DNA of 46,572 nt. Source: a virus. The stretch is from IMG/VR virus record IMGVR_UViG_3300031857_000346, positions 1 to 46,572 of that record. One strand, written 5' to 3'. Shown here piece after piece: positions 9,042 to 40,980 of this stretch. Numbering within the stretch: position 1 is the stretch's first letter; every line of letters starts with the position of its first letter. The notes under the pieces are model-generated. The model was given only the letters and a program-made list of their open reading frames with translations. It had not been told where the DNA came from and did not search any database. Made by a program: the position numbers and the translations under genes.

Positions 9042-9048
9042 ATTAAGC

Positions 9049-9083: not shown

Positions 9084-9103
9084 ATTTTAATTAATTGTTT
9101 TAT

Positions 9104-10162: not shown

Positions 10163-10188
10163 ATTTGTGTTTTTTTAATTTTTAAATT

Positions 10189-10641
10189 TTATGAATTATC
10201 AAAGTCGGTCATTTCTGTAGACGGAATAAGAATCAATTGAGTGTTAGCCATAATTAAATCCTTCATTCTACGAGTTCCAGAAACAGTTTCAATTGTTTGT
10301 CCGTTACTTGTTGGGAAGAAAACTAATTGATCTTGAGCTACACGACCACCAACTGCGATTCCAACTGGTGCTGAAGAACCAGCGGCTAAGCTTAGGTCAT
10401 CAATCAACACGCCAATTGGCTGTTGAGATCCATCGGTAGCATAAGCGCTACAAGGAACAACTCTATCACTCGCAGTGATTCTTCCCATAACCGTTCCGGC
10501 TGGTAATAATACTGGATTGTAAGTTGAGTTATTTACATAAGCTTCTTGGCGAGAAATTTCTCCGCCTAAGAAAACCTTAGCTGTGTTTGTATTTACAAAA
10601 TACTGGCTACCAGTATTTACTGTAGTTGTTTGTGAACTCAT
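10189..10641 (-). CDS. head decoration protein (lambda gpD-like)
   Basis: A 150-residue beta-rich protein of the HDPD family. The core phrase AGTVMGRITASDRVVPC followed by QPIGVLIDDLSLAAG matches the decoration protein signature (start-up value, then reference to a removable default). gpD-type proteins bind trimerically at capsid threefold axes and stabilise the expanded head. It lies between the protease-scaffold gene (1-nt overlap) and the capsid gene, exactly as in lambda. Its surface location makes it a possible acceptor for the glycosylation cassette at 25426-31699, though that is only an inference. Confidence 0.8.
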   Translation of the reverse strand: MSSQTTTVNTGSQYFVNTNTAKVFLGGEISRQEAYVNNSTYNPVLLPAGTVMGRITASDRVVPCSAYATDGSQQPIGVLIDDLSLAAGSSAPVGIAVGGRVAQDQLVFFPTSNGQTIETVSGTRRMKDLIMANTQLILIPSTEMTDFDNS

Positions 10642-25331: not shown

Positions 25332-25350
25332 CTTTGAAGTGTTATTTTTG

Positions 25351-25420
25351 GTAAAAATACAACACTACAAAAAAAACAAAGTTAAAAATTACCCACTTAC
25401 CGGAATTTATTTTATATTTG
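25351..25420. promoter_or_regulatory. 70-bp bidirectional promoter element, copy 2
   Basis: Nearly identical (69/70) to 11577-11646. Here the leftward side faces the tail sheath gene and the rightward -7 TATATTTG (25413-25420) lies 5 nt (TGCCC) before the ATG of the first glycosylation-cassette gene at 25426. The TTACCCAC/TTACCGGA direct repeat is conserved. Sequence outside the 70 bp does not match copy 1, so the shared segment has sharp ends. Confidence 0.75.
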
Positions 25421-25425
25421 TGCCC

Positions 25426-26118
25426 ATGAACAAATTAAAAGTTTTTCAAATATATTTTAATGAAGCACAACTACCATTAAACTTTATTCCTTATTATAAT
25501 GAAAAATGTTCTCCCTATTTTGAAAACAAAGTTATTGTTGATCTAATCAAAAAAAATCAGCACAAAGGCTGTACTCATTTTGGTGTATTAAGCCACAAAT
25601 TTGCTGAAAAAATAAAAGAAAGAATGAGCTCAAACTGGGACTCTTTACCTGAATTAAAAAACCACCATCGGTTCCTAATGAACGCCGATGAGATAGAAAA
25701 AGCTTTAGCTTTATTCGATCCGCCAGTTTTAGCTTTAATGCAACACCCGGCGCATGATCCAGTTTCTTTTGGCGGAAGGTTTCACCAAAAATTACCTGAT
25801 TTTTTTAAAGAGGTTACAAAGAAAATAGGCGCCGAATGGAAGCCGGAAGTTTTTGACCGTGTTTATTATTCAAACTATTTTATAGCAAAGCCAGCAATAT
25901 ATGCAGACTACGTTAACACAATGCTGGCTCCAGCTATTCAAGTCATGGATGACATGCCTGATCTTTGGCAAGACAGCGGTTATCCAAAAAAATTACCTGA
26001 AAACTTATCAAAAGAATGGGGTGTTAATTACTACCCATACCATACCTTTATATTAGAAAGATTATTTAGTTATTATTGCAACATAAACAAAAACAAAATA
26101 TGGAAAAAGCAGAATTAG
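25426..26118 (+). CDS. first gene of sugar cassette, hypothetical GT-associated protein
   Basis: A 230-residue soluble protein with no signal peptide. Phrases such as PYYNEKCSPYFENKVIVDLI, HFGVLSHKFAEKIKERM and YYSNYFIAKPAIYADYVN are like those of nucleotide-sugar transferase relatives found beside polysaccharide genes, with a DMPDLWQDSGY motif near the end. I cannot name a fold with confidence. Translation is placed at the ATG at 25426, 5 nt after the -7 box; an in-frame extension of 29 codons upstream would cover the promoter. It begins the + strand cassette. Confidence 0.5.
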   Translation: MNKLKVFQIYFNEAQLPLNFIPYYNEKCSPYFENKVIVDLIKKNQHKGCTHFGVLSHKFAEKIKERMSSNWDSLPELKNHHRFLMNADEIEKALALFDPPVLALMQHPAHDPVSFGGRFHQKLPDFFKEVTKKIGAEWKPEVFDRVYYSNYFIAKPAIYADYVNTMLAPAIQVMDDMPDLWQDSGYPKKLPENLSKEWGVNYYPYHTFILERLFSYYCNINKNKIWKKQN

Positions 26119-26333
26119 AAGCCGCTCTTCGTTTAATTTACGATAGCTGGATAGTGAGATACGGCACGCCGCAGGAAACAATGGCTAACGGTATGGCTAC
26201 AGATATGAATGCCTACTTTGATAGTATAAATTATAATTTGGTTCTTGGAACTTGTTTTTCTTTACAACAGGTCTTGGATCAGTTATCTGTAGTAGGAATA
26301 ACCGGAATAGACAGACCTGCAGATGGTGCTTAG
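26100..26333 (+). CDS. hypothetical small protein in sugar cassette
   Basis: A 77-residue acidic protein (MEKAELEAALRLIYDSWIV, then QETMANGMATDMNAYFDSIN). No domain is visible. The start codon lies inside the preceding gene by 19 nt and its end overlaps the next gene by 11 nt, so it is tightly coupled within the cassette. A TTG at 26076 would add 8 residues, but the ATG at 26100 is preferred. Confidence 0.5.
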   Translation: MEKAELEAALRLIYDSWIVRYGTPQETMANGMATDMNAYFDSINYNLVLGTCFSLQQVLDQLSVVGITGIDRPADGA

Positions 26334-26994
26334 TTTTAGTTTAATTCATCCTTCAAGGAGTAGGCCCGAAAAAGCTAGAGAGATTTATAATTACTGGATG
26401 AGCAAAGCTTCCGGTGAAAATAAAATAGAACATATTCTTTCTTTAGATTTTAGTGATCCGCTAAACGAGCACTATGGAATGGTTGACGGAAAGTATATAC
26501 CATTTGGAGACAACTCTAAGTCAATAATTGACCATAATAGTTGTGTAGTTGAGGCAACAAATCAAGCTGCTAAAATGGCAACTGGCGACGTGCTTATCTA
26601 TTTAAGCGACGATTTCAAATGTCCAGACAATTGGGATAGACTTATTGCAGAACGAATGCTTATAGGTCACCCAACTTTGCTAAAAGTGAATGACTGTTTG
26701 CAGCAATTTGAAGTCGCAGTGTTAACTATACCTATAATGAATAGATCGTTATACGAAAAGCTTGGATATTTTTGGCACCCATCTTACAGATCAATGTTTG
26801 TAGACGAAGACCTCTACTGGACTTGTAAAAATAATATTTGGATGGTATCAGCGCCTGAATTACAATTTCCTCACGAACACTGCTCAATAGGGAAAGCTGA
26901 ACGAGACGAGACTTATATCCGCTCAGAAGCTAATTGGGACCACGGCAAGGCTATTTTTGCAGAACGTAAAGCGCTAAATTTTCCTTTAAAATGA
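26323..26994 (+). CDS. GT-A family glycosyltransferase-like protein
   Basis: A 223-residue protein with the features of inverting GT2-like (GT-A fold) enzymes. The N-terminal strand and loop read FSLIHPSRSRPEKAREIYNY, and the metal/nucleotide-sugar binding region is AKMATGDVLIYLSDDFKCPD, which carries the Asp-Asp after a strand. The C-terminal region includes SMFVDEDLYWTC, a second acidic patch. Such enzymes move a sugar from a nucleotide donor to an acceptor. It is short for the family (usually 250-300 residues). The donor and acceptor cannot be told. It overlaps the neighbours by 11 and 4 nt. Confidence 0.65.
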   Translation: MVLSFSLIHPSRSRPEKAREIYNYWMSKASGENKIEHILSLDFSDPLNEHYGMVDGKYIPFGDNSKSIIDHNSCVVEATNQAAKMATGDVLIYLSDDFKCPDNWDRLIAERMLIGHPTLLKVNDCLQQFEVAVLTIPIMNRSLYEKLGYFWHPSYRSMFVDEDLYWTCKNNIWMVSAPELQFPHEHCSIGKAERDETYIRSEANWDHGKAIFAERKALNFPLK

Positions 26995-27557
26995 TTTTAT
27001 CAATATTAATTCCGAGCCTAGAAAGCAGGAAAGAGTTTTTGAACCAAATGCTTTTTAATTTGCATACGCAAATTACCGAATTAAGCGCATGGGATAAGAT
27101 AGAAGTATTGACGGACGAACGTTCTCATTTATCAACTGGAGTGAAAAGAAACTCGTTATTGAATAGAGCGGAAGGAAAGCATTCTTGGTTTGTAGATGAT
27201 GATGATGAAATAATAAAATCAGCATTGTCTTTAATATTAAACGGGCTAAACTCTAACCCTGACGTTATTGGTATAAACGGATGGATGACCACTGACGATG
27301 AGAACAGAGTGGACTGGGAAATGAAGTTAGAAAATCCTTATTGTGCTACAACACGAGACGGAAAAGAATTTTATTTAAGATTTCCTAACCACATTGCGGT
27401 TATGAGAACAGAGATTGCTAAACAGGTCAAATTTCCTGATCTTACAATGGGTGAAGATTACGCTTGGGCAAAAGAGATTCACGACAGAAAGCTTTTAAAA
27501 ACAGAGGTTATTATTGAAGAACCAATATATCACTATAAGTTTAGAAGCAAAAAATGA
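26991..27557 (+). CDS. GT2-like glycosyltransferase
   Basis: A 188-residue protein with a clear GT2 start (ILSILIPSLESRKEFLNQML), then VLTDERSHLSTGVKRNSLLN and the metal-binding run WFVDDDDEIIKSALSLI. Later parts include DVIGINGWMTTDDENRV and a catalytic-loop-like MGEDYAWAKEIHDR, where E-D-x-x-W is the usual GT2 catalytic region. The protein lacks a membrane segment, so it would act on a soluble acceptor or at the membrane face. It is coupled to both neighbours by 4-nt overlaps. Confidence 0.72.
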   Translation: MILSILIPSLESRKEFLNQMLFNLHTQITELSAWDKIEVLTDERSHLSTGVKRNSLLNRAEGKHSWFVDDDDEIIKSALSLILNGLNSNPDVIGINGWMTTDDENRVDWEMKLENPYCATTRDGKEFYLRFPNHIAVMRTEIAKQVKFPDLTMGEDYAWAKEIHDRKLLKTEVIIEEPIYHYKFRSKK

Positions 27558-28231
27558 CCATTAAAAATTACTCAAAACATATATACTATAAATTAAAAAT
27601 TATCATGGGAAACTACTCACAAGGCGAAGAGCAAAAGCATATTGAAATGTTTTTTGGAGACTTCAAAGGAACAGTTCTTGACATCGGAGCAAACGATGGA
27701 AAAACATTTAGCAACTCTTTGGCTTTAATTGAAAACGGATGGAATGCTGTTTTATTAGAGCCGGCACAAATAGCTTTTAATAAGCTGGAAAGATTGCACG
27801 AAAATAATCCTAAAGTAAGTTGTTATAAAATAGCTATAGGCAACCAGCACGGTAAAACAAAATTAAAAGTTTCTGGCGCTCACCTGCCTGACGGTTCAGA
27901 TGTAGCATTATTATCTTCGCTTAAAGAAGATGAGACTACTAGATGGAGAGACGCTGGTGTCCAATTTCACGAAGAGGAAATTATAGTAACAACTTTCTCT
28001 CATTTTAAAAAATTAAGTGGAGATCCAGCTTTTGATTTTATCACAATCGACTGCGAAGGATTGGACGTTGATGTATTAAAACAAATTGATCTTACAAACA
28101 CAAAACTTATCTGCATCGAATGGAACTCTAAACCTGAAGCAAAAGCGGAGATATTAGAATATTGTGCTAAATTTGGCATGACTAAAACAATTTATGAATC
28201 AGGAGAAAATTTATTAATATGCAGACAGTAG
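27554..28231 (+). CDS. FkbM-family methyltransferase
   Basis: A 225-residue protein with SAM-binding motif I (TVLDIGANDGKTFSNSLAL), then AVLLEPAQIAFNKLERL (acidic end of strand 2) and VSCYKIAIGNQHGKTKLKV. The core HFKKLSGDPAFDFITIDCEG followed by LDVDVLKQIDL is the FkbM signature. FkbM enzymes O-methylate sugars or lipids, and they are common beside glycosyltransferases, where methylation caps a glycan. The first 17 residues before MGNYSQGEEQ may be an upstream extension. Coupled to its neighbours by overlaps. Confidence 0.85.
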   Translation: MTIKNYSKHIYYKLKIIMGNYSQGEEQKHIEMFFGDFKGTVLDIGANDGKTFSNSLALIENGWNAVLLEPAQIAFNKLERLHENNPKVSCYKIAIGNQHGKTKLKVSGAHLPDGSDVALLSSLKEDETTRWRDAGVQFHEEEIIVTTFSHFKKLSGDPAFDFITIDCEGLDVDVLKQIDLTNTKLICIEWNSKPEAKAEILEYCAKFGMTKTIYESGENLLICRQ

Positions 28232-28941
28232 TATCATTCGCCGATGGCGCCGGGCATTATGCAAAAGCATTAATGCGACAAGAATTAAGTTTATTACAAG
28301 TTGGATTTATTCCTGCTGAAGGCAATAAGTTTAAAGGCATTAATGACTACGGTCATATAAACTCACCACAGCACAAGGGGGCGCCTGACTCTATACCATA
28401 CGCTTTTAAAGCGCTTTCAATTAAAAAAGCAGCGGAAGAACAAGACTGGAAAGGCCTCTTATTGTGGTGCGACTCGGTTGTGTATGCCACAAAATCAATT
28501 CAGCCTATTTTTGACCACATAAAAAAGCATGGTTATTTATTTTTTGATAATATTGGTTTCTCTATCGGAGACTATACCAGCGACGTTTGCTTGAGGCAAT
28601 TTAATATGTCTCGCGAAGAAGCTTTTGATAGCAAAATGATTATGGCTTGCGTGATGGGATTCGATTTAGAAAACCCGTCAACAAAAGAATTTTTAGATAA
28701 ATATATCGCAGCAGCAACAGACGGTCATTCTTATCCGGGATCTTGGACGAATGAAAATCTACAAGTATCAAACGATATGCGCTGTAAAGGTCACAGACAC
28801 GACCAGTCAGTAGCGAGTATATTGATAAAACAAATGGGGTTGAGTATTACTCGCGCTCAAGATACATTTTTTGCGTATGCAAGCCATAAAGGGTTAGTGC
28901 CAATAGCAGATAGCGTTGGTTTATGGTCGGAGGGAATATAG
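28219..28941 (+). CDS. putative glycosyltransferase (GT8/DxD-like)
   Basis: A 240-residue soluble protein. It begins TVVSFADGAGHYAKALMRQE, and the central part GLLLWCDSVVYATKSIQPIF resembles the strand-D-x-D region of retaining GT-A transferases. The end has HRHDQSVASILIKQMGL, where the H-D-Q-S pattern recurs in GT8-like and related Bacteroidota sugar transferases. The last codons overlap the HNH endonuclease frame if the upstream ATG of that gene is used. The family assignment is by pattern only. Confidence 0.5.
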   Translation: MQTVVSFADGAGHYAKALMRQELSLLQVGFIPAEGNKFKGINDYGHINSPQHKGAPDSIPYAFKALSIKKAAEEQDWKGLLLWCDSVVYATKSIQPIFDHIKKHGYLFFDNIGFSIGDYTSDVCLRQFNMSREEAFDSKMIMACVMGFDLENPSTKEFLDKYIAAATDGHSYPGSWTNENLQVSNDMRCKGHRHDQSVASILIKQMGLSITRAQDTFFAYASHKGLVPIADSVGLWSEGI

Positions 28942-28943
28942 TC

Positions 28944-29291
28944 ATGGAGCAAGAAGTTTGGAAAACAATAATCGGATTTGAAAAAGCTAAGATTAGCAAT
29001 TTCGGAAATGTAATGGGCGCCCACGGAAAATTAAGAAAATTAAAAAACATTTACACCAACGGCAACAGAAACCTACAGCCTTATAAAAACGTAAGGTTAT
29101 CATTAAAGCATTCTGGTGAATACGTACATAGACTAGTCGCAAAACATTTTTTAGATAACCCAAATAATTACAAAGAAGTAAACCATATAGATAGAAACAA
29201 ACATAATAACCATGTATCTAATTTAGAATGGTGCGATAGACTTCACAATGTAAAACATCAAAGAGAAACTCAAAAATTAATTAACAATTAA
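28944..29291 (+). CDS. HNH homing endonuclease with NUMOD4
   Basis: A 115-residue protein (an earlier in-frame ATG at 28923 would add 7 residues). The N-terminal NUMOD4 module reads WKTIIGFEKAKISNFGNVM and the HNH_3 part reads RLVAKHFLDNPNNYKEVNHI followed by RNKHNNHVSNLEWCDR. This layout is typical of free-standing or intron-encoded nicking nucleases that cut and move themselves into intact alleles. It lies between two cassette genes with no similarity to its neighbours and is probably a later insertion. The downstream methyltransferase lacks an ATG, which may result from that insertion. Confidence 0.85.
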   Translation: MEQEVWKTIIGFEKAKISNFGNVMGAHGKLRKLKNIYTNGNRNLQPYKNVRLSLKHSGEYVHRLVAKHFLDNPNNYKEVNHIDRNKHNNHVSNLEWCDRLHNVKHQRETQKLINN

Positions 29292-29304
29292 AAAAATAGA
29301 AAAC

Positions 29305-29925
29305 TTGGGATATACACAATTTACAGTAGATCAATTAGAAGAAATTATCTCTAATCATTCGCCAAAAACAATTTTAGATTTTGGTGCACAAAACATGTAT
29401 AATCAACCGGAACTACCAGCTCCTTACGCTAAAGAGTGGTATGAGAACGAAAAGAAGATGAAATATGTTTCTATCGACATTAACAACGAGCACGGTGCAA
29501 TTGCTGTGGATTTAAGTAAACCATTATTAGATCAAACAAAATTAGACGAGCGCCTAATAGATCAATATGATTTAGTAGTAGATGCCGGCACAACTGAACA
29601 TGTCGGAGTTGATGGCAAGCATGACACTGAAGCTTTCTACAACGCGTGGAAAACTAAATACGACTTATGCAAAAACGGAGGTATTATATACTCCGAAAAT
29701 CCAAAAACAGGATCTTGGCCCTGTCACGGATTTAATTATCATACATTAGAGTTTTATCACCAATTAGGAATAGCGCTCGGTTGCCAAATACTAAGTTTAG
29801 GTGAGCACGCCGCATGCCATAATATCATTGATGGATGGAATATTTATTGCTCGTTTATAAAACCAACAGCTACTCCGTTTATCTCACTAGAAGAGTTTAA
29901 AAAGTTAACTTATAAGTTAAGTTAA
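29305..29925 (+). CDS. class I SAM-dependent methyltransferase-like protein (TTG start)
   Basis: A 206-residue protein. Motif I is TILDFGAQNMYNQ; then come KYVSIDINNEHGAIAVDL (strand-2 acidic residue) and DLVVDAGTTEHVGVDG as motif III/IV, followed by a second half with a CHGFNYHTLEFYHQLGIALG strand-helix. It probably methylates a sugar or protein in the cassette. No ATG precedes motif I; the TTG at 29305, 14 nt after the HNH stop, is the best start, so the original 5' end may have been lost or altered when the nuclease gene inserted. Confidence 0.6.
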   Translation: MGYTQFTVDQLEEIISNHSPKTILDFGAQNMYNQPELPAPYAKEWYENEKKMKYVSIDINNEHGAIAVDLSKPLLDQTKLDERLIDQYDLVVDAGTTEHVGVDGKHDTEAFYNAWKTKYDLCKNGGIIYSENPKTGSWPCHGFNYHTLEFYHQLGIALGCQILSLGEHAACHNIIDGWNIYCSFIKPTATPFISLEEFKKLTYKLS

Positions 29926-30662
29926 TGAAATTAGCAGCAATATATAACGTTTGGGACGGTGTAGAGTTATTGAAACACTCAATAGCATCAATAAAGCAAG
30001 ACGTTGACTTAATAATAATTGTTTACCAAGACATCAGTAATTTTGGAGAAGAATTCAATCCATTACCTGAAATAAAAAAAGCTGTTTATGGGATTCCTCA
30101 TGTTTTACACAAATATGTACCGACAGTTGGAAATGGATTTGTAAATGAAACAACCAAGCGCCAAATAGGAATAGAAATAGCTTATAATTATAATTGTACA
30201 CATTTTTTAAATTTAGATTGCGATGAAATTTATGAAAACTTTGCTAAGGCAAAAAATTTATACATTAAATCAGGAGCACAAGGATCTGTCTGTAAACTAT
30301 TCACATACTTTAAGTTTCCAACTCTCAGATTTGAAACTGAAGATGGCTATTTTGTGCCTTTCATTCACGAACTCAAAAGCACCACTACTGCTGGCAGCAG
30401 CGTGGGTTATCCTTTTTATTGCGACCCTACTAGAAGCATTAATTGCAACGATGTAGTCTGTTTGCCGGTCCACATGCATCACTTCTCTTGGGTTAGACAA
30501 AACATTGAACGTAAATGCAGAAACTCAAGCGCAAAAGCAAACATCGAAAATGGAACAATGCTACAGAGTTATTATGATCCAAATTGTGGACCAGGTTTCT
30601 ATGTAAAAGACGCTGATAAATATTTAATCGAAGTGCCAAACCAATTCAACATTAATCTGTAA
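29925..30662 (+). CDS. GT2/GT-A-like glycosyltransferase
   Basis: A 245-residue protein with the GT-A start AAIYNVWDGVELLKHSIASI and DLIIIVYQDISNFGEEF. The D-x-D region is CTHFLNLDCDEIYENFAKA (Asp-Cys-Asp), followed by a long acceptor-side part containing MHHFSWVRQNIERKCRNSSA. No membrane segment is visible. It starts at the last A of the previous gene stop. It is the fourth transferase-like gene of the cassette. Confidence 0.65.
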   Translation: MKLAAIYNVWDGVELLKHSIASIKQDVDLIIIVYQDISNFGEEFNPLPEIKKAVYGIPHVLHKYVPTVGNGFVNETTKRQIGIEIAYNYNCTHFLNLDCDEIYENFAKAKNLYIKSGAQGSVCKLFTYFKFPTLRFETEDGYFVPFIHELKSTTTAGSSVGYPFYCDPTRSINCNDVVCLPVHMHHFSWVRQNIERKCRNSSAKANIENGTMLQSYYDPNCGPGFYVKDADKYLIEVPNQFNINL

Positions 30663-30663
30663 T

Positions 30664-31044
30664 ATGGAAATAGTAAAAGACAAAGTTAAGAAACACAAGA
30701 TCACAACCGAAGTGTATAAACGTATCAGTGAAATTGCAGCCGGAATGGTTCCATGCTCAAAAGTAATTAACGGCAAGCGTCAAATGAAGCGCGTAGTGAA
30801 GAAATGCACATGGGAAACAATGTCGCCACAGAATCGCGAGCATATCGAAAAGCACAATCCAAAAGATGCTAATAAAAAAGGACCATACAAAGAAATTTGG
30901 ATGGAACCGGTTTTAATAAACCATAAAGAGTGTTTGCTTGCTGAATATAAAATGCATGGAGAGGATGGAATAACTTTTTATGTTGAAACTATAAACAAAG
31001 CCATCGCCAATGAAAATAGCAGTACTGATTCCGGACAGGAGTGA
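30664..31044 (+). CDS. hypothetical basic protein in sugar cassette
   Basis: A 126-residue basic protein (KDKVKKHKITTEVYKRISEI, then SKVINGKRQMKRVVKKCTWE) without recognised domains, signal or membrane segment. Its C-terminal third is more mixed (LINHKECLLAEYKMHGEDG). It overlaps the last cassette gene by 35 nt, which shows tight coupling. It might be a nucleic-acid or acceptor-binding accessory protein, but nothing in the sequence decides this. Confidence 0.5.
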   Translation: MEIVKDKVKKHKITTEVYKRISEIAAGMVPCSKVINGKRQMKRVVKKCTWETMSPQNREHIEKHNPKDANKKGPYKEIWMEPVLINHKECLLAEYKMHGEDGITFYVETINKAIANENSSTDSGQE

Positions 31045-31699
31045 TAGGCCAGACTTTTTAGCCAACACTTTACGATTAATAGAAAGTCAGACCGTTAAAC
31101 CGGACCATGTAGAGGTAGTAAACTTTCCAGCAACGTCTGAAGCTTGCGATATAACCGTCCGTTACCGTTATGGATATGATAAACTTTCTAAGATGGGCTT
31201 TGATGTCATTTTTTTTATGGAAAATGATGACTGGTACACCAATAACTACATAGAAACAATGCTTAATGCTTGGAAAGAAGCTGGTGAGCCGGATATTTTT
31301 GGAACAGATTATACTTTTTATTATCACATTCGCCAACAAGGACGCTTCACTATGGAGCACTTCAACCGAAGCAGCGCAATGTCTACTTTAATAAAACCGA
31401 ATTTAATATTCGAATGGCCGCAAGATAACGACCCTTACACGGACGTTTGGCTATACACTAAGTTGAAGTATGGTGTATTTCATCCAGATCCTAAAAAACC
31501 AATTTGTCTTGGCATCAAACACGGCGTTGGAAAGTGTGGTGGAGAATGCCACACCACTTATTTACGTTTATTCAGAGAAGGCAGTGGCGCTTTCGTTGAC
31601 CCCAACATGGTTTGGTTAAAATCTATAGTTGATGAGGAAAGTTTTAAATTTTACCATTCAATATCAAGTCAGCAAAACGAGGCCAACTCGCCAACTTAA
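31010..31699 (+). CDS. GT-A family glycosyltransferase, end of cassette
   Basis: A 229-residue protein with the typical start KIAVLIPDRSDRPDFLANTL and the acidic donor site GFDVIFFMENDDWYTNNYIE, plus aromatic acceptor residues (DYTFYYHIRQQGRF). A later run, YTDVWLYTKLKYGVF, resembles the catalytic base region. The coding region runs 56 bp past the 3' end of the terminase gene on the other strand, so the two genes overlap convergently. It ends the cassette; no clear terminator was seen. Confidence 0.65.
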   Translation: MKIAVLIPDRSDRPDFLANTLRLIESQTVKPDHVEVVNFPATSEACDITVRYRYGYDKLSKMGFDVIFFMENDDWYTNNYIETMLNAWKEAGEPDIFGTDYTFYYHIRQQGRFTMEHFNRSSAMSTLIKPNLIFEWPQDNDPYTDVWLYTKLKYGVFHPDPKKPICLGIKHGVGKCGGECHTTYLRLFREGSGAFVDPNMVWLKSIVDEESFKFYHSISSQQNEANSPT

Positions 31700-33686
31700 C
31701 ATCTAACTTCATTTCTTTAAAAAATCTATAGACATAAATGTCTCTAACTACTGTATTGTAGATGTTGACGTCCAAATGGTGATTCTGAGACGAAGATGTT
31801 TTCTTTGCCCAAATGAAATTACCTTTTTTATCAACCACTCGATGTTCTGCAGCATAATGAGAAAAATAATTTTCCAAACCATATTTTCCGTCTCTCGGTT
31901 CAGGGAAATTTAAAAATCCTTGCGGTTGTTCTTGCTTCGGCTCAGCATTTCTGTCCCACTTAAAATTAATACGAGCCATCAACCGGTCCTTTAAATTATT
32001 AACGCGCACCATGTATAATTCGTTTGGACGACTTGCGCTATTCTTAAAAGAAGCTTGCTCTATATGCATTGGAATATACTTATCTTCCTTGTCACCCTTC
32101 AATCCAAAAATAAGATGGTTGCTTTTTTCTATATAATTAAAAACCTGGTCCTCAGCGAAACCAGTATCTATTCCGCTTGCAGTAATTCTCATCGTGGTGC
32201 CATCCTCTAAAGTATAACTCGCGCTAAGTATTTCTTCAAATTTTTTCCAGACATTATTAGGTTTAGACACATCATAACTAAACATTTCTCTGGTTATGTT
32301 TTCCTTTTTCTTCCAACTTTGATTTGCAATAAATGTACCTAATGATCCGTGAGTGATACTATAAGTACTGCCAGTTTCGCTATGTGCAATAACCTCATAA
32401 TCCAAGCGGACGTCATCATAATCAGAATTAACTCCAGCAACTCGACCACCTAAATCGGCAGCACAAGTAAGCATCACTATTTTACCATTACCATCTTTAA
32501 TACTTTGAGCTTCAGGAACAGTTCCTATTTGATATGATCTTATATTTAATTGTAATTGATCTACCTTAACAGAGGTTCCCGGTTCTTCATAAGTTTCTCC
32601 GAGACAAACGTTCACAAATGTTTTATAAAGCGCCTCGTTTCTAGGTTGATTAGAGGGATTGGCTTCTAAAAAGTCATTAACATAATGTTCCCAATCGTAC
32701 ATTCCTAAAGGTGCATACAAACTGTTTATATGATAACTGTAATATCCAAGTTTACTAGGCTTAGCCGTTGGTTTCCAAAAACCCTTGTTTAACAACTCAT
32801 GCTTGTTTTTGTCGGTAAAAAAACCACCGCATTCCTGACAAGTGTACCCAACGGACTCTGATACAACGGTACCGCTTTCATCTACATCCCAAGTTATACC
32901 GGCGGATCTGTTATCGGTATCCTTAACCAGCGTCGACCAAACCAATTCTATAAACTCATTGCAACAAGGGCACGGTATCATAAATTTTCTTTGATCGCCA
33001 AGTAAATATGCTGGTTTTATATTACTAGTTTCTTCTCTTTCTGGAGTTGATATATAAAATATTTTACATGTATCAGCATAAGCAGCAAAGCGCTGCTCTA
33101 ATAATTTACGAGTACTTCCTGATTCTTTACTTTCCCCTTTAACACTCTCAAAATCGTCAAAAAAACCGGTTTGAAGGTCAATTTGCCTTAACCCTTTATG
33201 GTTATTTGCACTAATAATACTTACATATCCTTGCGGAAATTCCTTTTTAAAGTTTGTATCACCTGATTTGTTTGCGCGATTCCTTTGGACCTGTGGTTTT
33301 ATATATGGCCTCAACCCACAACTATCAATCATTAAATCTAATTTCTCCATTGACTTTTCAATCAGATCAGGCGCACCAACTGTTATTAAAGTATTGCCCG
33401 GATTATTTTTAATTATCCAACCTACTCCCGGATAAATTACACCGGCAGAGCCACCAACTTGAGCCCCTTTCATAATTGCAACTGTTCGGGCCGGATGCGA
33501 TTGAGAAAGACAATCAATGATCTCGCGCATGTAAGGCGTCCTGCTGTATTTAAACGGTCCAGGGAACGGCTTTTGCATGATCATATTTTGCTCAGTCCAA
33601 TCAGACGGCTTAATGTCGGAAATGTTAACGCTCCCGCTTTCAAGCAATGCTTTTAATTGATCTGAATATAACTTACTCTCGCTCAC
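31644..33686 (-). CDS. terminase large subunit (lambda gpA family)
   Basis: A 680-residue packaging motor and nuclease. The N-terminal ATPase has the A-like motif MKGAQVGGSAG (residues 72-82), then NTLITVGAPDLIEKSMEKL and TGFFDDFESVKGESKESGS with the acidic Walker B region. Two CxxC pairs (CPCCNEF near residue 242 and CQECGGF) are typical of gpA-type terminases. The C-terminal nuclease domain carries LTCAADLGGRVAGVNSDYDD and later Asp-rich elements (ITASGIDTGFAEDQVF). The length is normal. It is separated from the portal gene by about 18 kb, with the cassette and tail module in between. Confidence 0.9.
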   Translation of the reverse strand: MSESKLYSDQLKALLESGSVNISDIKPSDWTEQNMIMQKPFPGPFKYSRTPYMREIIDCLSQSHPARTVAIMKGAQVGGSAGVIYPGVGWIIKNNPGNTLITVGAPDLIEKSMEKLDLMIDSCGLRPYIKPQVQRNRANKSGDTNFKKEFPQGYVSIISANNHKGLRQIDLQTGFFDDFESVKGESKESGSTRKLLEQRFAAYADTCKIFYISTPEREETSNIKPAYLLGDQRKFMIPCPCCNEFIELVWSTLVKDTDNRSAGITWDVDESGTVVSESVGYTCQECGGFFTDKNKHELLNKGFWKPTAKPSKLGYYSYHINSLYAPLGMYDWEHYVNDFLEANPSNQPRNEALYKTFVNVCLGETYEEPGTSVKVDQLQLNIRSYQIGTVPEAQSIKDGNGKIVMLTCAADLGGRVAGVNSDYDDVRLDYEVIAHSETGSTYSITHGSLGTFIANQSWKKKENITREMFSYDVSKPNNVWKKFEEILSASYTLEDGTTMRITASGIDTGFAEDQVFNYIEKSNHLIFGLKGDKEDKYIPMHIEQASFKNSASRPNELYMVRVNNLKDRLMARINFKWDRNAEPKQEQPQGFLNFPEPRDGKYGLENYFSHYAAEHRVVDKKGNFIWAKKTSSSQNHHLDVNIYNTVVRDIYVYRFFKEMKLDVKLASWPRFADLILNGKI

Positions 33687-34257
33687 CTACCCCCCTTTTT
33701 TCAGAATAATCATTTACTATGTTGTCTATTGATTTAACGCTAAGTATCGTCGCTTTGTTTATAGCCGAATTAAACCATTTTATTAATTCACCACTCATTT
33801 CAGCTACATCATTTACATTTAATGAGTGTTTTTTTGAAAAAACCCTAGTAAATTCCCTAGAATTATTATGAACTTCAGTAATTATTGACTGGTTATGTTG
33901 TAAGAAAACAGGTTTAATTAACTCAGATGGAACAACAACCCCTTTCAACTTCTCTTCTTTTAGCCTTAATAAACGAACTTCCTGCTCCAGTTTTTCAACT
34001 TGAGCTGCCGTTTTCTTTAAATCTAACGATGCATAATCCTCTTTTTGACTATCAATATCCTTTTTTATAACCGCTACTTCCGGTCCTGCTAAGGATTTTG
34101 TTTTGTTTTTTTCTAAAAAAAATTTATTTCGAGGGTCTTCACCGTCAATTTTATCGTCACTTAGTATTATAACTTTTTTTCGACTTATATAAACGGATAA
34201 CCTTTTGGTTTCAATTCCACAAGCAACGGCAAATTCTTTTTTTGTATATATTGTCAT
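33673..34257 (-). CDS. putative terminase small subunit
   Basis: A 194-residue protein directly upstream of the large subunit, overlapping it by 14 nt. It begins with a MerR/Nu1-like helix-turn-helix (IYTKKEFAVACGIETKRLSV, then YISRKKVIILSDDKID), followed by a long coiled coil (KTAAQVEKLEQEVRLLRLKE) as in lambda Nu1 oligomerisation regions. A TTG 8 codons upstream is a possible alternative start. It would recognise the packaging site, for which the palindromic 284-bp gap next to its gene is a candidate. The call is by position and helix-turn-helix. Confidence 0.7.
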   Translation of the reverse strand: MTIYTKKEFAVACGIETKRLSVYISRKKVIILSDDKIDGEDPRNKFFLEKNKTKSLAGPEVAVIKKDIDSQKEDYASLDLKKTAAQVEKLEQEVRLLRLKEEKLKGVVVPSELIKPVFLQHNQSIITEVHNNSREFTRVFSKKHSLNVNDVAEMSGELIKWFNSAINKATILSVKSIDNIVNDYSEKRGVGERE

Positions 34258-34283
34258 TACATTACCTTTTACAAATACCAATA

Positions 34284-34541: not shown

Positions 34542-34928
34542 CTATACGCCTATGATGTGGCGTGGTTGCTTATTAAGCGGCAGTGTTAATATATATGACT
34601 GAAAGTCTGTTAATGACCTTGCTAATACGTATGTATAGCCTAATGCTTTAATGCGGGCCTTAAAATCCTTTTGTGCTGGTGATTGTCTACCCGTTGATGT
34701 CTTAGTCTCTACCCATATCAACAGGCCATACCCATGTATCACTATAAGATCACTGGCACCGGCCAATAAGCCAGTGCTCTTCATTGTCATCGCTTCCCTT
34801 CCATCGCGTGTGCCACCATTAGGTACACTCATTATAAGGCAACGTGGCTCATGGTGAACCAAGCAATAAGTGTTTGTGTACCAACGAACCATTTCGGCCT
34901 GTATGCGGTCCTCTGAGTTAGCTTGCAT
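34542..34928 (-). CDS. VRR-NUC domain nuclease
   Basis: A 128-residue PD-(D/E)XK-type nuclease of the VRR-NUC family (an ATG 11 codons upstream would also be possible). Typical features are SEDRIQAEMVRWYTNTYC, NGGTRDGREAMTMKSTGLL, the catalytic GASDLIVIHGYGLLIWVETK (Asp then E-x-K) and the end QKDFKARIKALGYTYVLARS. VRR-NUC proteins of phages are Holliday-junction or structure-specific nucleases acting in replication or recombination. It overlaps the preceding small gene by 11 nt and lies beside the packaging and origin region. Confidence 0.85.
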   Translation of the reverse strand: MQANSEDRIQAEMVRWYTNTYCLVHHEPRCLIMSVPNGGTRDGREAMTMKSTGLLAGASDLIVIHGYGLLIWVETKTSTGRQSPAQKDFKARIKALGYTYVLARSLTDFQSYILTLPLNKQPRHIIGV

Positions 34929-35100
34929 CGTTGTAGGCTTTTTGTAGTATATCAAATGCATTTATACCCTTTTTATTCAAATGATCTAAAAAGAACGCAA
35001 TTCCTCCATATTTGTAAGAAACTTCATTTTCTGCATTTTTTGCGATTTTTTGCAATTTATCTAATAATTGCGATTCTGTGAGTTTTTCGTTTTTTGGCAT
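34918..35100 (-). CDS. small helical protein, first gene after the origin region
   Basis: A 60-residue soluble protein (MPKNEKLTESQLLDKLQKIA, then FFLDHLNKKGINAFDILQKA). Its ATG lies 3 nt after a strong -7 box with a -33 at the right distance, so the mRNA would be leaderless. An open frame continues 30 codons further upstream, but it reads through the promoter and iterons, so the shorter form is preferred. Function unknown; it may be an early gene near the origin. Confidence 0.55.
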   Translation of the reverse strand: MPKNEKLTESQLLDKLQKIAKNAENEVSYKYGGIAFFLDHLNKKGINAFDILQKAYNDAS

Positions 35101-35103
35101 GTG

Positions 35104-35135
35104 CAAATATATAAAGCAGGTAGCAATAATCCAAA
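35104..35135 (-). promoter_or_regulatory. canonical Bacteroidota promoter, leftward from the origin region
   Basis: On the - strand TTTG (35132-35135), a 20-bp spacer and TATATTTG (35104-35111) form a complete -33/-7 pair, followed by CAC and the ATG at 35100. The iteron-like motifs overlap the spacer and flank the promoter, so the binding protein could also repress it. Predicted to be early or constitutive. Confidence 0.7.
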
Positions 35136-35189
35136 AGCAAGGTAAATAATCTATCCTGCTTTTATTGAAAGCCTTGCTACGACTGACCA

Positions 35190-35217
35190 AAAGCAGGTAA
35201 AGCAGGTAAAGCAGGGT
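35190..35217. repeat. three tandem iteron units (AAAGCAGGT period)
   Basis: AAAGCAGGT occurs at 35190-35198 and 35199-35207, and AAAGCAGGGT at 35208-35217, followed by AAA. Orientation is the same within the cluster; copies in the opposite orientation lie beyond the AT-rich segment. Confidence 0.7.
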
Positions 35218-35366
35218 AAATTATACTGGAGAGAATCATGGCTAAAAATAAATTCGTAAAAAAAAATAATCGGTAAGCATGATATATATATAATATATAA
35301 ATATAATTTTATCTTGCTTTACCTGCTCTACTTGCTTTTGACTAGTGGTAGTGCGGCTTTCGGTGA

Positions 35367-35391
35367 AGCAGGATAAAATTTTTATCCTGCT
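35367..35391. repeat. 11-bp inverted repeat of the iteron motif
   Basis: AGCAGGATAAA (35367-35377) and TTTATCCTGCT (35381-35391) are exact reverse complements with a 3-bp spacer, so two iterons face each other here. Confidence 0.65.
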
Positions 35392-35430
35392 TTACCCTGC
35401 TTTTTTAACATTTACCCTGCTTTTTTAACA
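35391..35430. repeat. perfect 20-bp tandem repeat with iteron core
   Basis: Two identical 20-bp units TTTACCCTGCTTTTTTAACA follow each other directly (35391-35410 and 35411-35430). They end 10 bp before the rightward -7 box at 35441, so they cover the position where the -33 element would be. Confidence 0.7.
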
Positions 35431-35440
35431 AAATAATAGT

Positions 35441-35448
35441 TATATTTG
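35441..35448 (+). promoter_or_regulatory. -7 box, rightward from the origin region
   Basis: TATATTTG lies 3 nt (GGC) before the ATG at 35452, giving a leaderless arrangement. No -33 TTTG is found at the usual distance; the 20-bp tandem repeat sits there instead, so a bound protein may activate or block it. Confidence 0.6.
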
Positions 35449-35451
35449 GGC

Positions 35452-35769
35452 ATGAAAAAACTAATGGGTTTTCTGTCATGCACTATATTTTTGCTGACAA
35501 TGGCTTTTACTGCTTCAAGCCATCCACCAATCGAAAAGCACCCTGAATACAAGGCTGATTTAATCGTTAGCGAATTTCAAATAGCAAGTGTAAGTATTTT
35601 TGAATTCAGTAAGCCACCATCGGTGGATCATTATGAGTTTGGAGACATTACAGTGAACATGCATGTAGATTATGATAAGGTCGGTTTGCGCGCCTGTTAT
35701 TTGATGCCGAAAGGTTTAAAGAACAAAGATCATAGGCCATGGCTGTTCTATCGAGTAAAAACATGTTAA
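35452..35769 (+). CDS. small secreted protein of unknown function
   Basis: A 105-residue protein with a signal peptide (MKKLMGFLSCTIFLLTMAFTASS) and a compact mature part (SHPPIEKHPEYKADLIVSEF, then FGDITVNMHVDYDKVGLRAC and LFYRVKTC). It is the only + strand gene in the replication region and has its own promoter and a strong terminator, so it is a stand-alone unit. Such an isolated exported protein might act on the host envelope, for example in exclusion of other phages, but no family is recognised and this is speculative. Confidence 0.55.
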   Translation: MKKLMGFLSCTIFLLTMAFTASSHPPIEKHPEYKADLIVSEFQIASVSIFEFSKPPSVDHYEFGDITVNMHVDYDKVGLRACYLMPKGLKNKDHRPWLFYRVKTC

Positions 35770-35783
35770 ATATATTCAAAAAG

Positions 35784-35815
35784 AAAAACCCCGACAGTGA
35801 TGCCGGGGTTTTTTT
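35784..35815. terminator. bidirectional intrinsic terminator
   Basis: A perfect 10-bp stem (AAAAACCCCG at 35784-35793 with CGGGGTTTTT at 35804-35813) with a 10-nt loop and seven T residues at 35809-35815 follows the + strand secreted-protein gene. The A-rich left side gives a U-tract on the opposite strand, so it can also end transcripts of the convergent - strand genes from 35834. Confidence 0.9.
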
Positions 35816-36317: not shown

Positions 36318-38441
36318 CTATATATATTTTTTAATTACTGAATAATAACGCGCTCCGCGATCTTGTATTGGAGTGCCGAAAATCTTTTTAAGTTCCAACC
36401 CGAAATATTTAAAACCACGAATTTGTTGCTTGCTGTTTTGTTCAATCCAATCTTTAATTTGGGTGGCTGTCATCTTTTCAACCAATTCACCTTCCATTAA
36501 TGATTCGTGGAAGAACTGAAGAATAAGTTCTCGCTCGGTGTTGACGTCCTCAAACTCTTTGCTCATTATTGCCAAGCCAGCAAGATCCTCTTTGGTTAAT
36601 TGCCAGCTTTCGCCGCTTTCATAAGCACGAACCAACTCCATGAATAATTCATTTTTATCTATTGAGTTATATTCTTCATGGTCTATTTTAACCACCTCAA
36701 CAGTCAAGATACGAGTGTTGCCGGTCCGGTCATTTATGATCCGTGTATCATTCGAAGTGCCGCACAATATGGCGAGGCGTTTAAAATCTTCGTTACCACG
36801 TCCGTATGGAGCACGAAGCGAGAACACTGACTTTGAAGTTAGCTCTTTAAATTGCTTTTCGTCTTGTTTTGACTTGCCGCCCATTTCATCATCCATTACG
36901 ATAAGCTTTTGGCACATCAATAACTCATCATCTTTGCCACGGTCAAGTTTAGACTCAGCATAATATTTTTGCAATGGCTCAGGCAACAAGCCGCGGAACC
37001 AAGTCGTCTTGCCAGTGAATTGACCACCAACCAAAGCGAGCACATATCTAACTGGATGACCATTATAAGCAGCAATAATGCCGATTAACCATTTTCTCAT
37101 AAACACATCGCAGAACGGCGTATCAGAATAAATAGTGCGGCAAAGCTTCGTTATATTGTCTGTAGTGTTACGGTAGCGGTTCTTTTCAATGTATTCGGTT
37201 ATTGGATTATACTCTTGAGTAAAATCGCTATAAATAATCCGCTCGCATAAATCGAAGGTAACGTCTTTTATATTAAATGCGGCGCGAGCGCGGAGGTAAA
37301 TTGAGTTCAAGCGCTCTTTGTTGATCTCACCCTTGGTTGTATCTTCCACGGCACGAGTGATGGTATTCTTTCGGAGCGGATGGTTTTGGTTAACCCATTC
37401 CATTAATGATTCAATTAATCGCTCAGGGTCTCCAGCCACTGAGGTTTGAAGATTAAGATCATTACGTTCAAAAACTTCCTTAGCAACCTGGGCGGCTTGG
37501 TCAGGTTTATAGCCATTAATTTCAACCAACTGTTTTGCTACAGAATCTTGAGTGCGACCAGAACGTTTACCAATGCTGGCAATTTGAACTGCTTTTTTTG
37601 TCTCGGATGGAATATCAATGCCTGCTTGTTTAAGCATCCAATAAAGCGTGCCGACAGTTATTCCGTTCGTATTACGTTGGCATGAAATAGTGTATTGGCG
37701 GTCCGCATGCGCTGAATTATATTTGCCATCCATGGCACATAATGCATGAAACCACTGGCGACCATTTTCGCCGAAGCCAGCAGCTAAAGCAAATGCCAAT
37801 TGAAAATATTCTTGATATGTCGGCGCAAGGTTGATGCCACGATTAACGGCAGTTTTTATTAACTCAGAAACAACATCGTCGCCAATAACAACTGGCAGCG
37901 AGTTTGGTTTATGTTTTGGTTCGGCTTGTGTTTTTGAGACCTTGGACTTTTCGTTTATTTGAAGTTCAGCATCAAATGATACATAGCGAAGCGATGCAAC
38001 GTTTTGTGGCGCTGGGTCAACTACAATGCCATAGGTATTGAAATAATAATTTCTAATCCAACGGAACGAATCCTTATGCTTGGCTGGATTAATTTTTATA
38101 ACGCAAGCAAGGCCATTGCCGGATGCTGATTTAAAAAGAGCGTATGTGTATGGATCAGAAAGCAGTGCTGTTTTATCGCTATAGCCATCAATGTCAATGC
38201 ATATAAAAGACGAGTGAGCGATTAAGCCAGCCTCTTTTCGTGCACCAAATGCGCCTGATATTGTTACACATGGCAGCGTTTCTTTTAATTGGTTGCGTAG
38301 CTTTTTATCTGGCTGCAGCCGAACGGTCTCTATAGCGGTCTGCCATTTTCCAAATTTTACACCTTGTAGAAAATCAACCATCGAAATGGTTTGAGTCGAC
38401 GAGTTGTCCTTGGCGTTGGTATAAATGGAAATATTGCTCAT
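36318..38441 (-). CDS. VirE_N/primase-like plus VapE-type helicase
   Basis: A 707-residue replication protein. Residues 1-160 are a BT4734-like VirE_N domain (AGLIAHSSFICIDIDGYSDK), part of the archaeo-eukaryotic primase-like group; about 185-285 is a PriCT_2-like helical domain; the C-terminal part is a VirE/D5-type helicase with Walker A GGQFTGKTT (472-480), Walker B LIVMDDE (513-519) and sensor GTSND. It likely primes and unwinds the phage origin, which lies 0.9-1.2 kb downstream of its stop. Translation is set at the ATG at 38441; a GTG 7 codons upstream is an alternative. Confidence 0.82.
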   Translation of the reverse strand: MSNISIYTNAKDNSSTQTISMVDFLQGVKFGKWQTAIETVRLQPDKKLRNQLKETLPCVTISGAFGARKEAGLIAHSSFICIDIDGYSDKTALLSDPYTYALFKSASGNGLACVIKINPAKHKDSFRWIRNYYFNTYGIVVDPAPQNVASLRYVSFDAELQINEKSKVSKTQAEPKHKPNSLPVVIGDDVVSELIKTAVNRGINLAPTYQEYFQLAFALAAGFGENGRQWFHALCAMDGKYNSAHADRQYTISCQRNTNGITVGTLYWMLKQAGIDIPSETKKAVQIASIGKRSGRTQDSVAKQLVEINGYKPDQAAQVAKEVFERNDLNLQTSVAGDPERLIESLMEWVNQNHPLRKNTITRAVEDTTKGEINKERLNSIYLRARAAFNIKDVTFDLCERIIYSDFTQEYNPITEYIEKNRYRNTTDNITKLCRTIYSDTPFCDVFMRKWLIGIIAAYNGHPVRYVLALVGGQFTGKTTWFRGLLPEPLQKYYAESKLDRGKDDELLMCQKLIVMDDEMGGKSKQDEKQFKELTSKSVFSLRAPYGRGNEDFKRLAILCGTSNDTRIINDRTGNTRILTVEVVKIDHEEYNSIDKNELFMELVRAYESGESWQLTKEDLAGLAIMSKEFEDVNTERELILQFFHESLMEGELVEKMTATQIKDWIEQNSKQQIRGFKYFGLELKKIFGTPIQDRGARYYSVIKKYI

Positions 38442-38542
38442 ATAATAAATAGGCAAGCCCACGGCGCTAAAGTCGCCAAACCACCTTGCAATGATGCAGG
38501 GAGCGCCGAGGGTGATTGCTTTATCTTAAATGTGATTTTCAT
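38438..38542 (-). CDS. possible 34-residue protein coupled to the primase-helicase
   Basis: ATG at 38540-38542 opens a short frame (MKITFKIKQSPSALPASLQG and on to WACLFII). Its TGA overlaps the primase-helicase ATG as ATGA, the usual sign of coupling. The C-terminal end is hydrophobic. The sequence has little other support, and it may be an upstream regulatory frame rather than a gene. Confidence 0.25.
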   Translation of the reverse strand: MKITFKIKQSPSALPASLQGGLATLAPWACLFII

Positions 38543-38785: not shown

Positions 38786-40273
38786 TTACGCTGTTAAAAA
38801 TTCTATTTCATTTATTTTTTTATCGGCAAAAGTTACGCCGCCTTCTCTGAGTTCAAATTCTAGCGATTCAAGTTGGCGTAAAATCCACTCATCACGATAT
38901 TTTTTAATTCGGGCATATTCACCAATTGCCATGGCTCCACGGCTTCTCATTATTCGCCAAACGTGTTTAGCGTTAATTTGCTTCACGTTCTCAAGTTCGA
39001 TTAATTCGGGTATTGTGCATTGAGATAAATATTTACCGGGTATGCTGGTGCGGATATTGTTTGTAAGCTCAACCAACACACCGCGTTTAAGTTCCGCCTC
39101 GGTTACTAGAAATATATAACCGCAATAAGGACATTCTTTTGTTTGCATTGATAACATAGCTGTACAAGCCTTACATGATTTTACGGGAGCCGCTCCAAGC
39201 GTGTTTCGCTTCTTTTTTGGGGGTTCTAATTTCCAGTTTCTGTTTTCTGCCCATAAGCCATGTCTAGTAAAATTACCACCATAATCCAACACCAAAAATT
39301 CTTTTTTTGTTGGCGTAACTCTTGAGCCTCTACCGCAACCTTGAAGCCATACAGTAATAGAGTTAGTTGCCCTGTTGAATACAACACATTCTATGTTTGG
39401 GTCGTCGTAACCAGCAATAAATATATTGGCATTAACTAAAACAGGAAAAGCTCCAGAACGGTGTTCTTTCAACAAATAATCTCTTTTTGTTTCATCCGTG
39501 TCACTGCTTATAGCAAACGCTTTTATTCCAGCGGCAGTAAACGCTTTGGCTGTTTCTTCTGCGTGAGAAATATTTACACAAAACACTATAGTACGTTTGT
39601 CCTTTGCTTTTTCTAGCCAACCATCTATTACACCATCATAAATTTTTGTATTTGAAAAATGTTTATAATTAGATTGGTCTGTAAATTCACCAGAGTTATC
39701 TGTTTGTAAATCAGAGAAGTCATCTTGTGATTCGTAACCACGGCAATTTGATAAATAACCAAGCTGTATCAACTCTGGAATTTCAATTGAAGAAACCATG
39801 TGAGTGTAATATTTGAATAAATTTTTTCCAACAGGTGTTCCCGTGCAACCTAAAGCTTTAGTGTCTGGATATAATTCAAAAACCTTATTGTAAGCGTTTT
39901 TATGCGCTTCATCCACAATTATTAAATCAAATTTAACTTTATCGAATAAATCAGATCGACGCTTAAACGTTTCAACCATACCAAAAAAAAGCATAGCTTG
40001 TTCCGGAATGTTTGAACTTTTACTTTTAGCATCTATTCTATAAACTGCAATTTCGTGAGTTGAAACAGCTTTAATGTTTTGTTCAAAAATTTCTGATCTA
40101 TCGGACAAGCACAAAACTTTTTTTCCTTTTGATGCGGCAGACGCGCAAATTTGAGAAAACGTAAGGCTTTTTCCTGCGCCAGTTGGCATAACAAGTAGTA
40201 TTCTCTTATGAGTTCTGTAAGCCTCTCTTACTTCGTTAATTGCTTTTTCTTGATATGGTCTTAATTGAATCAT
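38786..40273 (-). CDS. SF2 DEAH-box helicase
   Basis: A 495-residue helicase of the type III restriction/UvsW-like group. Motif I is LLVMPTGAGKSLTFSQI (residues 27-43), motif II FDLIIVDEAHKN (DEAH at 121-124), motif III CTGTPVG, and motif VI LQGCGRGSR, which contains the arginine finger region. The C-terminal zinc finger reads CKACTAMLSMQTKECPYC. There is no nuclease domain, so it would remodel replication forks or recombination intermediates. It follows the GIY-YIG gene with a 4-nt overlap and precedes the zinc-ribbon gene. Confidence 0.88.
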   Translation of the reverse strand: MIQLRPYQEKAINEVREAYRTHKRILLVMPTGAGKSLTFSQICASAASKGKKVLCLSDRSEIFEQNIKAVSTHEIAVYRIDAKSKSSNIPEQAMLFFGMVETFKRRSDLFDKVKFDLIIVDEAHKNAYNKVFELYPDTKALGCTGTPVGKNLFKYYTHMVSSIEIPELIQLGYLSNCRGYESQDDFSDLQTDNSGEFTDQSNYKHFSNTKIYDGVIDGWLEKAKDKRTIVFCVNISHAEETAKAFTAAGIKAFAISSDTDETKRDYLLKEHRSGAFPVLVNANIFIAGYDDPNIECVVFNRATNSITVWLQGCGRGSRVTPTKKEFLVLDYGGNFTRHGLWAENRNWKLEPPKKKRNTLGAAPVKSCKACTAMLSMQTKECPYCGYIFLVTEAELKRGVLVELTNNIRTSIPGKYLSQCTIPELIELENVKQINAKHVWRIMRSRGAMAIGEYARIKKYRDEWILRQLESLEFELREGGVTFADKKINEIEFLTA

Positions 40274-40980
40274 GCGTATATAAATGGGGTGTTATTAAAT
40301 GAGCGTTTATTTATTTTACCTCTAAGGGTACTTTCCTTGTAAACTGACGATTCAGAAGCTTCCCTTACGTTGCCGTAAAATATACCGTTCTCTGTGTTTA
40401 ATATTAAGAAGCCTTTGCCTAAATTGTAGGTTTTATTTAGTGCCGTCCTCTCTGAAGATAATTTCCTTCCCGTAAGTTTTTCTCTTATTTTTTGTTTTGT
40501 TTCTTCTGATAATTTGACCCCGTATCTCGGATTATTTTTACCAGTCGCTCGTTCTTTTATTTTTGCCGTAAACTCTATTGTATGCTTTTTGCCATAAAAA
40601 CCATTTTTAACGCCAGAGCAGTTTCGTTTTCTTACAAGCGCTTTTTCTGATATTATTTTCTTTGAAGCTTCGCTATGTTTAAAACCTCTCGAACCTTCCC
40701 CGCCAACAGTTAAATTCAAACCAATATCTTTATTACTAAAGCTCTCGTACTTATTAATATAAAAAACTTCCCTTTCACTTAATGCTTCTACATCGCAGTA
40801 TTCCAACACGTCAAATAAATGATTTTCAAAACCGTGTTTTATAAAAGAGTTTCTTAATTTGGTTTGACTTAAAATTTTCTGTTTTGATTTGTAATCTTTT
40901 ATACGATTAGGAATGTTAATAGATTGACCTATATAAACCCTTCCGCTTGGTGATGTGATTCTGTAAATACCAGATTTCAT
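40270..40980 (-). CDS. GIY-YIG homing endonuclease with NUMOD3 repeats
   Basis: A 236-residue protein. The GIY-YIG domain opens KSGIYRITSPSGRVYIGQSI (GIY then YIG), with SFIKHGFENHLFDVLEYCD and EREVFYINKYESF. Then three NUMOD3-like DNA-binding repeats follow (GFKHSEASKKIISEKA, GKKHTIEFTAKIKERATG, GVKLSEETKQKIREKLTG) and a C-terminal NUMOD1-like part. It lies between two short genes and overlaps the helicase start by 4 nt, so it is probably a self-inserted selfish nuclease gene. Confidence 0.9.
   Translation of the reverse strand: MKSGIYRITSPSGRVYIGQSINIPNRIKDYKSKQKILSQTKLRNSFIKHGFENHLFDVLEYCDVEALSEREVFYINKYESFSNKDIGLNLTVGGEGSRGFKHSEASKKIISEKALVRKRNCSGVKNGFYGKKHTIEFTAKIKERATGKNNPRYGVKLSEETKQKIREKLTGRKLSSERTALNKTYNLGKGFLILNTENGIFYGNVREASESSVYKESTLRGKINKRSFNNTPFIYA

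Follow-up and report, generated by a model that had tools for sequence, protein, structure and literature searches.

How this phage starts to replicate, and which of its proteins reads the start site, are the questions raised by a dense group of short repeats at 35101-35451 of a linear fragment, 46,572 bases long, from an IMG/VR virus; the whole of it we refer to as the window. The features of the sequence and its comparison with relatives make it very probable that the segment is the phage replication origin and that it is read by the phage's own VapE-type primase-helicase. The origin is most likely of a known kind, the SaPI/Sfi21-type origin used by self-loading helicases.

A mirrored iteron array around an AT-rich core

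A motif scan found 13 iterons matching (A)AAGCARG(N)TAAA at 35113-35423, in agreement with an initial annotation that had counted about a dozen AGCAGG(G)TAAA-like motifs in two orientations. Iteron orientation runs ++-+++ and then ---+---, with six sites on the left and seven on the right, and the two halves mirror each other. The array is made up as follows.

35113..35220, plus strand: left half-array (motif scan, orientation and spacing)
35113-35122(+), 35134-35146(+), 35150-35162(-), 35190-35200(+), 35199-35209(+), 35208-35220(+): left iterons (motif scan)
35221..35307, no strand: AT-rich core, presumed unwinding element (composition of the largest inter-site gap)
35308..35423, minus strand: right half-array, mirror image of the left (motif scan)
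35308-35320(-), 35319-35328(-), 35328-35338(-), 35365-35377(+), 35381-35393(-), 35391-35403(-), 35411-35423(-): right iterons (motif scan)
35167..35361, no strand: large imperfect inverted repeat (54-bp arms at 35167-35220 and 35308-35361, 80% complementary, with 87 bp between)

The pattern AGCA[AG]G followed by 0-2 bases and TA occurs 13 times in 35101-35451 and 15 times in the whole window, and a degenerate 14th AGCAAG lies at 35173. The 351 bp of the segment contain 14 copies of AGCARG, against a mean of 0.5 and a maximum of 4 in 2000 dinucleotide shuffles. Moreover, an unbiased motif search in 400-bp windows ranked 35000-35400 first in the window with a score of 90.7, the best unrelated stretch scoring 52.4. 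Repeat density and rank in the window exclude chance.

The finer repeats of the initial annotation are also there: tandem 9-bp units start at 35190, 35199 and 35208, the inverted repeat placed near 35367-35391 was recovered as 35362-35378/35380-35396 at 94%, and the 20-bp tandem repeat at 35391-35430 is exact. The AT-rich run that it marked at 35281-35310 is correct but understated, as the whole gap at 35221-35307 is 81% AT. Absent from it was the large inverted repeat, which is centred near 35264 and makes the array palindromic; when the segment was aligned with its own reverse complement, 77% matched over 92 bp. The phage is also represented by a second contig, which matches at 99.96% identity over 4.9 kb and keeps the array with one difference, a G to A at 35365 that turns GGTGAAGCAGG into the commoner GGTAAAGCAGG. 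An Rfam search of the segment for structured RNA elements returned sub-threshold matches, none above the gathering score. We note a 12-codon open reading frame within the core (35239-35277, MAKNKFVKKNNR) that has a good ribosome-binding-like sequence, which we set aside as probably due to chance.

Genome setting

The array lies between the early genes and the terminase genes, with the following neighbours.

36318..38462, minus strand: VapE-like primase-helicase (BT4734-like N-terminal domain, PriCT-2, VapE-like ATPase), proposed initiator (Pfam PF05272, E 2.9e-31)
38786-40273, minus strand: ResIII helicase, early gene
35446..35813, plus strand: small gene of 107 aa with a signal-peptide-like hydrophobic start, between array and helicase and opposite to its neighbours
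35104..35134, minus strand: left-edge promoter-like element TTG-N20-TATATTTG, whose spacer holds iteron 35113-35122 (pattern scan)
34542..34961, minus strand: VRR-NUC nuclease gene (Pfam PF08774, E 2e-4, below the gathering score)
31644-34281: terminase genes, beyond the array
33673-34281: small terminase subunit, assigned by position only

The early minus-strand genes also include an exonuclease. The helicase stop codon is 895 bp from the array, with a small cassette in between: the 107-aa gene, whose product had no PHROG match, is followed by a strong two-way terminator at 35784-35813 and has the appearance of a moron cassette that was inserted between the helicase and the origin. VRR-NUC is the first gene past the array in several relatives. 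Elsewhere in the window, a run of plus-strand genes at 25339-31699, glycosyltransferase/methyltransferase-like by eye, stands against the surrounding minus-strand genes as unusual cargo. An HNH-like open reading frame, also judged by eye, lies at 28923-29291. A GIY-YIG/NUMOD3 homing endonuclease (Pfam) at 40270-40980 adjoins the ResIII helicase gene.

Divergent promoters had been proposed at the two edges. The sequence TATATTTG indeed stands three bases before an ATG at both, but only at the left edge is there a TTG at the spacing expected for Bacteroidota promoters, which leaves the proposed divergent pair half supported. Relatives of the helicase at 58-59% identity occur in Pedobacter and Chitinophaga genomes, and the host is therefore probably a Bacteroidota bacterium. 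Megablast of 31-46.6 kb against named phages gave no match, and VRR-NUC used as a probe retrieved only another contig of the same phage. A two-iteron DNA pattern found 8 contigs across IMG/VR, one of them from the same phage and the others about as many as chance would give. GC skew, a check suggested by the initial annotation, has no extremum at 35.3 kb, a result that is uninformative either way because one coding strand predominates in the contig, itself a fragment.

One layout and many iterons across helicase lineages

A search of IMG/VR with the helicase returned 80 related loci, which fell into 44 lineages when clustered at 95% identity. The strongest repeat cluster lay at the helicase gene in most of the 44, position not having been given to the search, and a motif model placed an array there in 39 of 43 first-set lineages. 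Arrays usually begin 50-80 bases before the helicase stop codon, many overlapping the end of the gene, and in most relatives the array directly adjoins the helicase gene. Groups of lineages differ in their iteron, which may be CTTAATAGG, GGTAGTAAG, GGTTGTAAG, GTGTAACCT, TGTAACGGG, CCTACCACC, GCAAGGGTA or others. In the 39 lineages, the largest gap between sites has a median of 97 bp and is more AT-rich than its flanks in 36, and motif orientation flips across the core in 35 (p 3e-7).

A further 19 lineages with arrays, and more motifs with them, came from later scans that took in prophages of Bacteroidota genomes and went as low as about 30% identity; the joint set numbers 53 lineages. When the arrays of 47 lineages were superposed on their cores, one layout emerged. 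On both sides of the core centre, a pair of sites mostly 8-10 bp apart comes first, at about 40-70 bp, followed by an inverted site near 90-120 bp and then by outer sites near 120-160 bp. The gene beyond the array is downstream of and co-directional with the helicase in 45 of the 49 lineages with a callable neighbour, and it is often a ResIII helicase.

The array stands off the helicase in other lineages as well, about 1.2 kb downstream in L296 and about 0.4-0.7 kb downstream in L293, and one clade (L070, L071, L079, L081 and L183) has it on the 5' side of the helicase. No array was found with the helicase in L033, L034, L047 and L056 of the first set, nor in L283 and L295 (partial contigs).

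Some lineages invite comment of their own. The helicases of L027, L031, L032 and L035 are about 97% alike and the helicase-side half-array is common to all four; in the last three, degenerate repeats stand in place of the far half-array and a different gene follows, a swap that may reflect recombination at the origin. L049 and L050 form a natural specificity-change pair, with helicases 95% identical and iterons one base apart (ACCCTTTACA and ACCCGTTACA). In L050, the ResIII helicase after the array (8364-10625) has an apparent intein-like insertion, with a cysteine start and an HN-C end.

The helicase as candidate reader of the iterons

The closest solved relative of the helicase is PriRep1 with double-stranded DNA (7pds; hmmsearch E 3.9e-12), which our fold model matched with a Z of 14.8 over 334 residues. 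The model is of moderate quality (pLDDT 83, with the ATPase part at 540-581 poor), and structural claims are made at the level of class. Residues 640-714 are predicted to run helix-strand-helix-helix-strand-strand, the pattern of a winged helix.

36321..36545, minus strand: predicted C-terminal winged helix, residues 640-714 (AlphaFold2 secondary structure)

Residue G703, at the wing tip between the two wing strands, was the best of 593 columns at tracking iteron sequence. Across the 53 lineages, with correction for overall divergence, it gave r 0.37 where 99.9% of permutation maxima fell below 0.32, in a test that shuffles lineages and only partly removes relatedness. Proline occupies position 703 in 13 of the 14 lineages with TACTAC iterons and in 0 of the 39 others, and a distant MAG lineage at 29% identity (L302) obeys the same rule. 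Close relatives pair GGTAGTAAG with proline (L018), GGTTGTAAG with threonine (L006) and TTAATAGG with isoleucine (L011). When changes at 703 were placed on a tree that leaves out the C-terminal part, about five independent ones agree and none oppose, for which the phylogenetic sign test gives a p of only 0.06 because just five independent pairs exist. Over the whole protein the correlation between motif and helicase is modest (Mantel r 0.35), and the same statistic taken over 60-residue blocks assigned specificity to no one part, whereas the single-column scan did localise it. Since permutation only partly removes relatedness, we regard the co-variation of residue 703 as a strong lead rather than proof. 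As the best co-varying column falls at the predicted wing tip, the helicase is probably the iteron reader, and its C-terminal winged helix, to go by the predicted structure and residue 703, would be the part that binds.

Might the repeats instead be operators at which a phage repressor or activator controls the two edge promoters, with replication starting elsewhere? The edges themselves invite the idea, given TATATTTG just before an ATG on both sides, the full TTG-N20-TATATTTG on the left, ahead of the leftward operon and with an iteron in its spacer, and the exact 20-bp tandem that precedes the start codon on the right. Autoregulation through the left promoter is possible for that spacer iteron, and the initial annotation had suggested that the site may control both promoters in addition to its role as an origin. 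To judge from gene order, however, promoter control cannot be the general reason for the array, because in 45 of 49 relatives the array sits in a co-directional run of genes that leaves no place for a divergent promoter pair. Moreover, many arrays reach back into the final 50-80 bases of the helicase gene, the AT core and the mirrored layout persist while the motif changes, and the motif co-varies with the helicase wing. We consider an operator array improbable.

Known replicons with the same anatomy

Among the closest parallels is the SaPI Rep/origin replicon, together with Cch2 of SCCmec. The C-terminal domain of SaPI Rep reads iterons directly downstream of its gene, the isolated C-terminal domain of Cch2 from SCCmec binds its putative origin, and SaPI Rep binding has been reported as two hexamers (PMC7581432). 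The window shares with these systems a homologous VapE/D5-type AAA+ helicase as the candidate initiator, iterons near the 3' end of its gene and, with SaPI-type replicons, the placing of iterons on both flanks of an AT-rich region. It differs in that the helicase is fused to BT4734-like/PriCT-2 domains, the phage is one of Bacteroidota, the iteron sequence is another, the array lies 0.9 kb off with a cassette between, and iteron binding is putative.

The Streptococcus thermophilus phage Sfi21 supplies an annotated origin. Its record places an 'origin of replication, 302 bp non-coding region, phage inhibitory sequence' just after an SF3/D5 helicase, and in this segment (NC_000872 34487-34784) an AT-rich core is surrounded by nine AGTAAC copies, some in each orientation. 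Like the window, Sfi21 has a non-coding segment of about 300 bp 3' of its helicase with short inverted repeats flanking the AT core; the window, Sfi21, SW6, PH15 and phiFL4A all have a non-coding segment with inverted repeats on the 3' side of a helicase of the SF3/VapE class. The repeat differs, the helicases share only DUF5906/D5-class domains, and BLASTP of the window helicase against Sfi21 orf382 was not significant, so the link to Sfi21 is one of domain class and anatomy.

Similar arrays with other repeats follow VapE/SF3 helicases in SW6, PH15, phiFL4A, PLE2, FPSV-S8, mumin6-1 and the satellite Javan337, and no clear array was found beside the VapE helicase of FoX2, ECOO78, Ln-8, P2559Y, phi46:1 or P12024S. 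The Flavobacterium phages mumin6-1 and FPSV-S8 resemble the window in having a VapE helicase and an array, with inverted GGTAAC or GTGTAACC iterons; their helicases are about 28% identical to that of the window, and the array is unannotated in their records. In satellite phage P4, with its ori and crr, the initiator is the alpha protein, a primase-helicase that recognises iterons through its C-terminal winged helix. P4 differs in having two separate sites, and the likeness is one of initiator type. Among the early genes scanned, neither Pfam nor PHROG gave a match to a winged-helix Rep of the iteron-plasmid (RepA/RepE) type. The initial annotation had already proposed an iteron origin at which the primase-helicase or an early protein acts. 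An origin read by the primase-helicase is supported by the kept layout, the Sfi21 origin, the kinship with SaPI Rep and the co-variation of the wing.

These comparisons also bear on whether the array could be a packaging site, pac or cos, which we think very unlikely. The terminase genes lie just beyond it, the small terminase gene is within 1 kb, and mumin6-1 has the order array, VRR-NUC, terminase, as the window does. Across relatives, however, arrays go with the helicase and not with terminase, the next gene being often a ResIII helicase and the array of one clade lying 5' of the helicase, and the corresponding segment of Sfi21 is annotated as an origin. Least probable of all is a partition centromere or accessory maintenance site distinct from the start site: iteron arrays also serve partition proteins, but no ParA, ParM or ParB-like match occurred among the genes scanned, and this array is tied to a self-loading type of helicase and has an AT-rich core.

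How the origin might work and what it means

How the helicase would start replication at this origin can be proposed in steps, taking the iterons, mirror symmetry, AT core, adjacency and co-variation from the sequence, and binding, facing rings, melting and bidirectionality from relatives. The C-terminal winged helix would bind the iterons, with AAGCAGGGTAAA and AAAGCAGGGTAAA as candidate targets, and the two half-arrays would place two helicase rings face to face. The AT core would then melt, the rings would load and unwind in both directions to give a bidirectional start, and the fused N-terminal primase domain would prime. More weakly, the bound helicase would also lie over the left promoter, and transcription of the small open reading frame, VRR-NUC and the terminase genes could be tied to replication.

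Perhaps VapE-type phage replicons in general combine a single constant origin architecture with an iteron "address" that evolves freely and changes with the helicase wing, such that one or a few residues, like proline 703 for TACTAC, set replicon identity. We offer this generalisation tentatively and with some doubt. Rapid change of address could be driven by decoy origins or by satellites that parasitise the initiator.

What is new for specialists is the widely conserved layout with its changing address, together with a candidate specificity residue. A probable origin and a candidate initiator can now be named for a group of Bacteroidota phages that is large, mostly uncultured and, to our knowledge, without a described replication start. 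One origin layout spans phages of Streptococcus to those of Flavobacterium, and the combination of array and helicase is a recipe for locating origins in other VapE-helicase phages. The diverging pairs of iteron and helicase are a natural series on the joint change of origin and initiator specificity.
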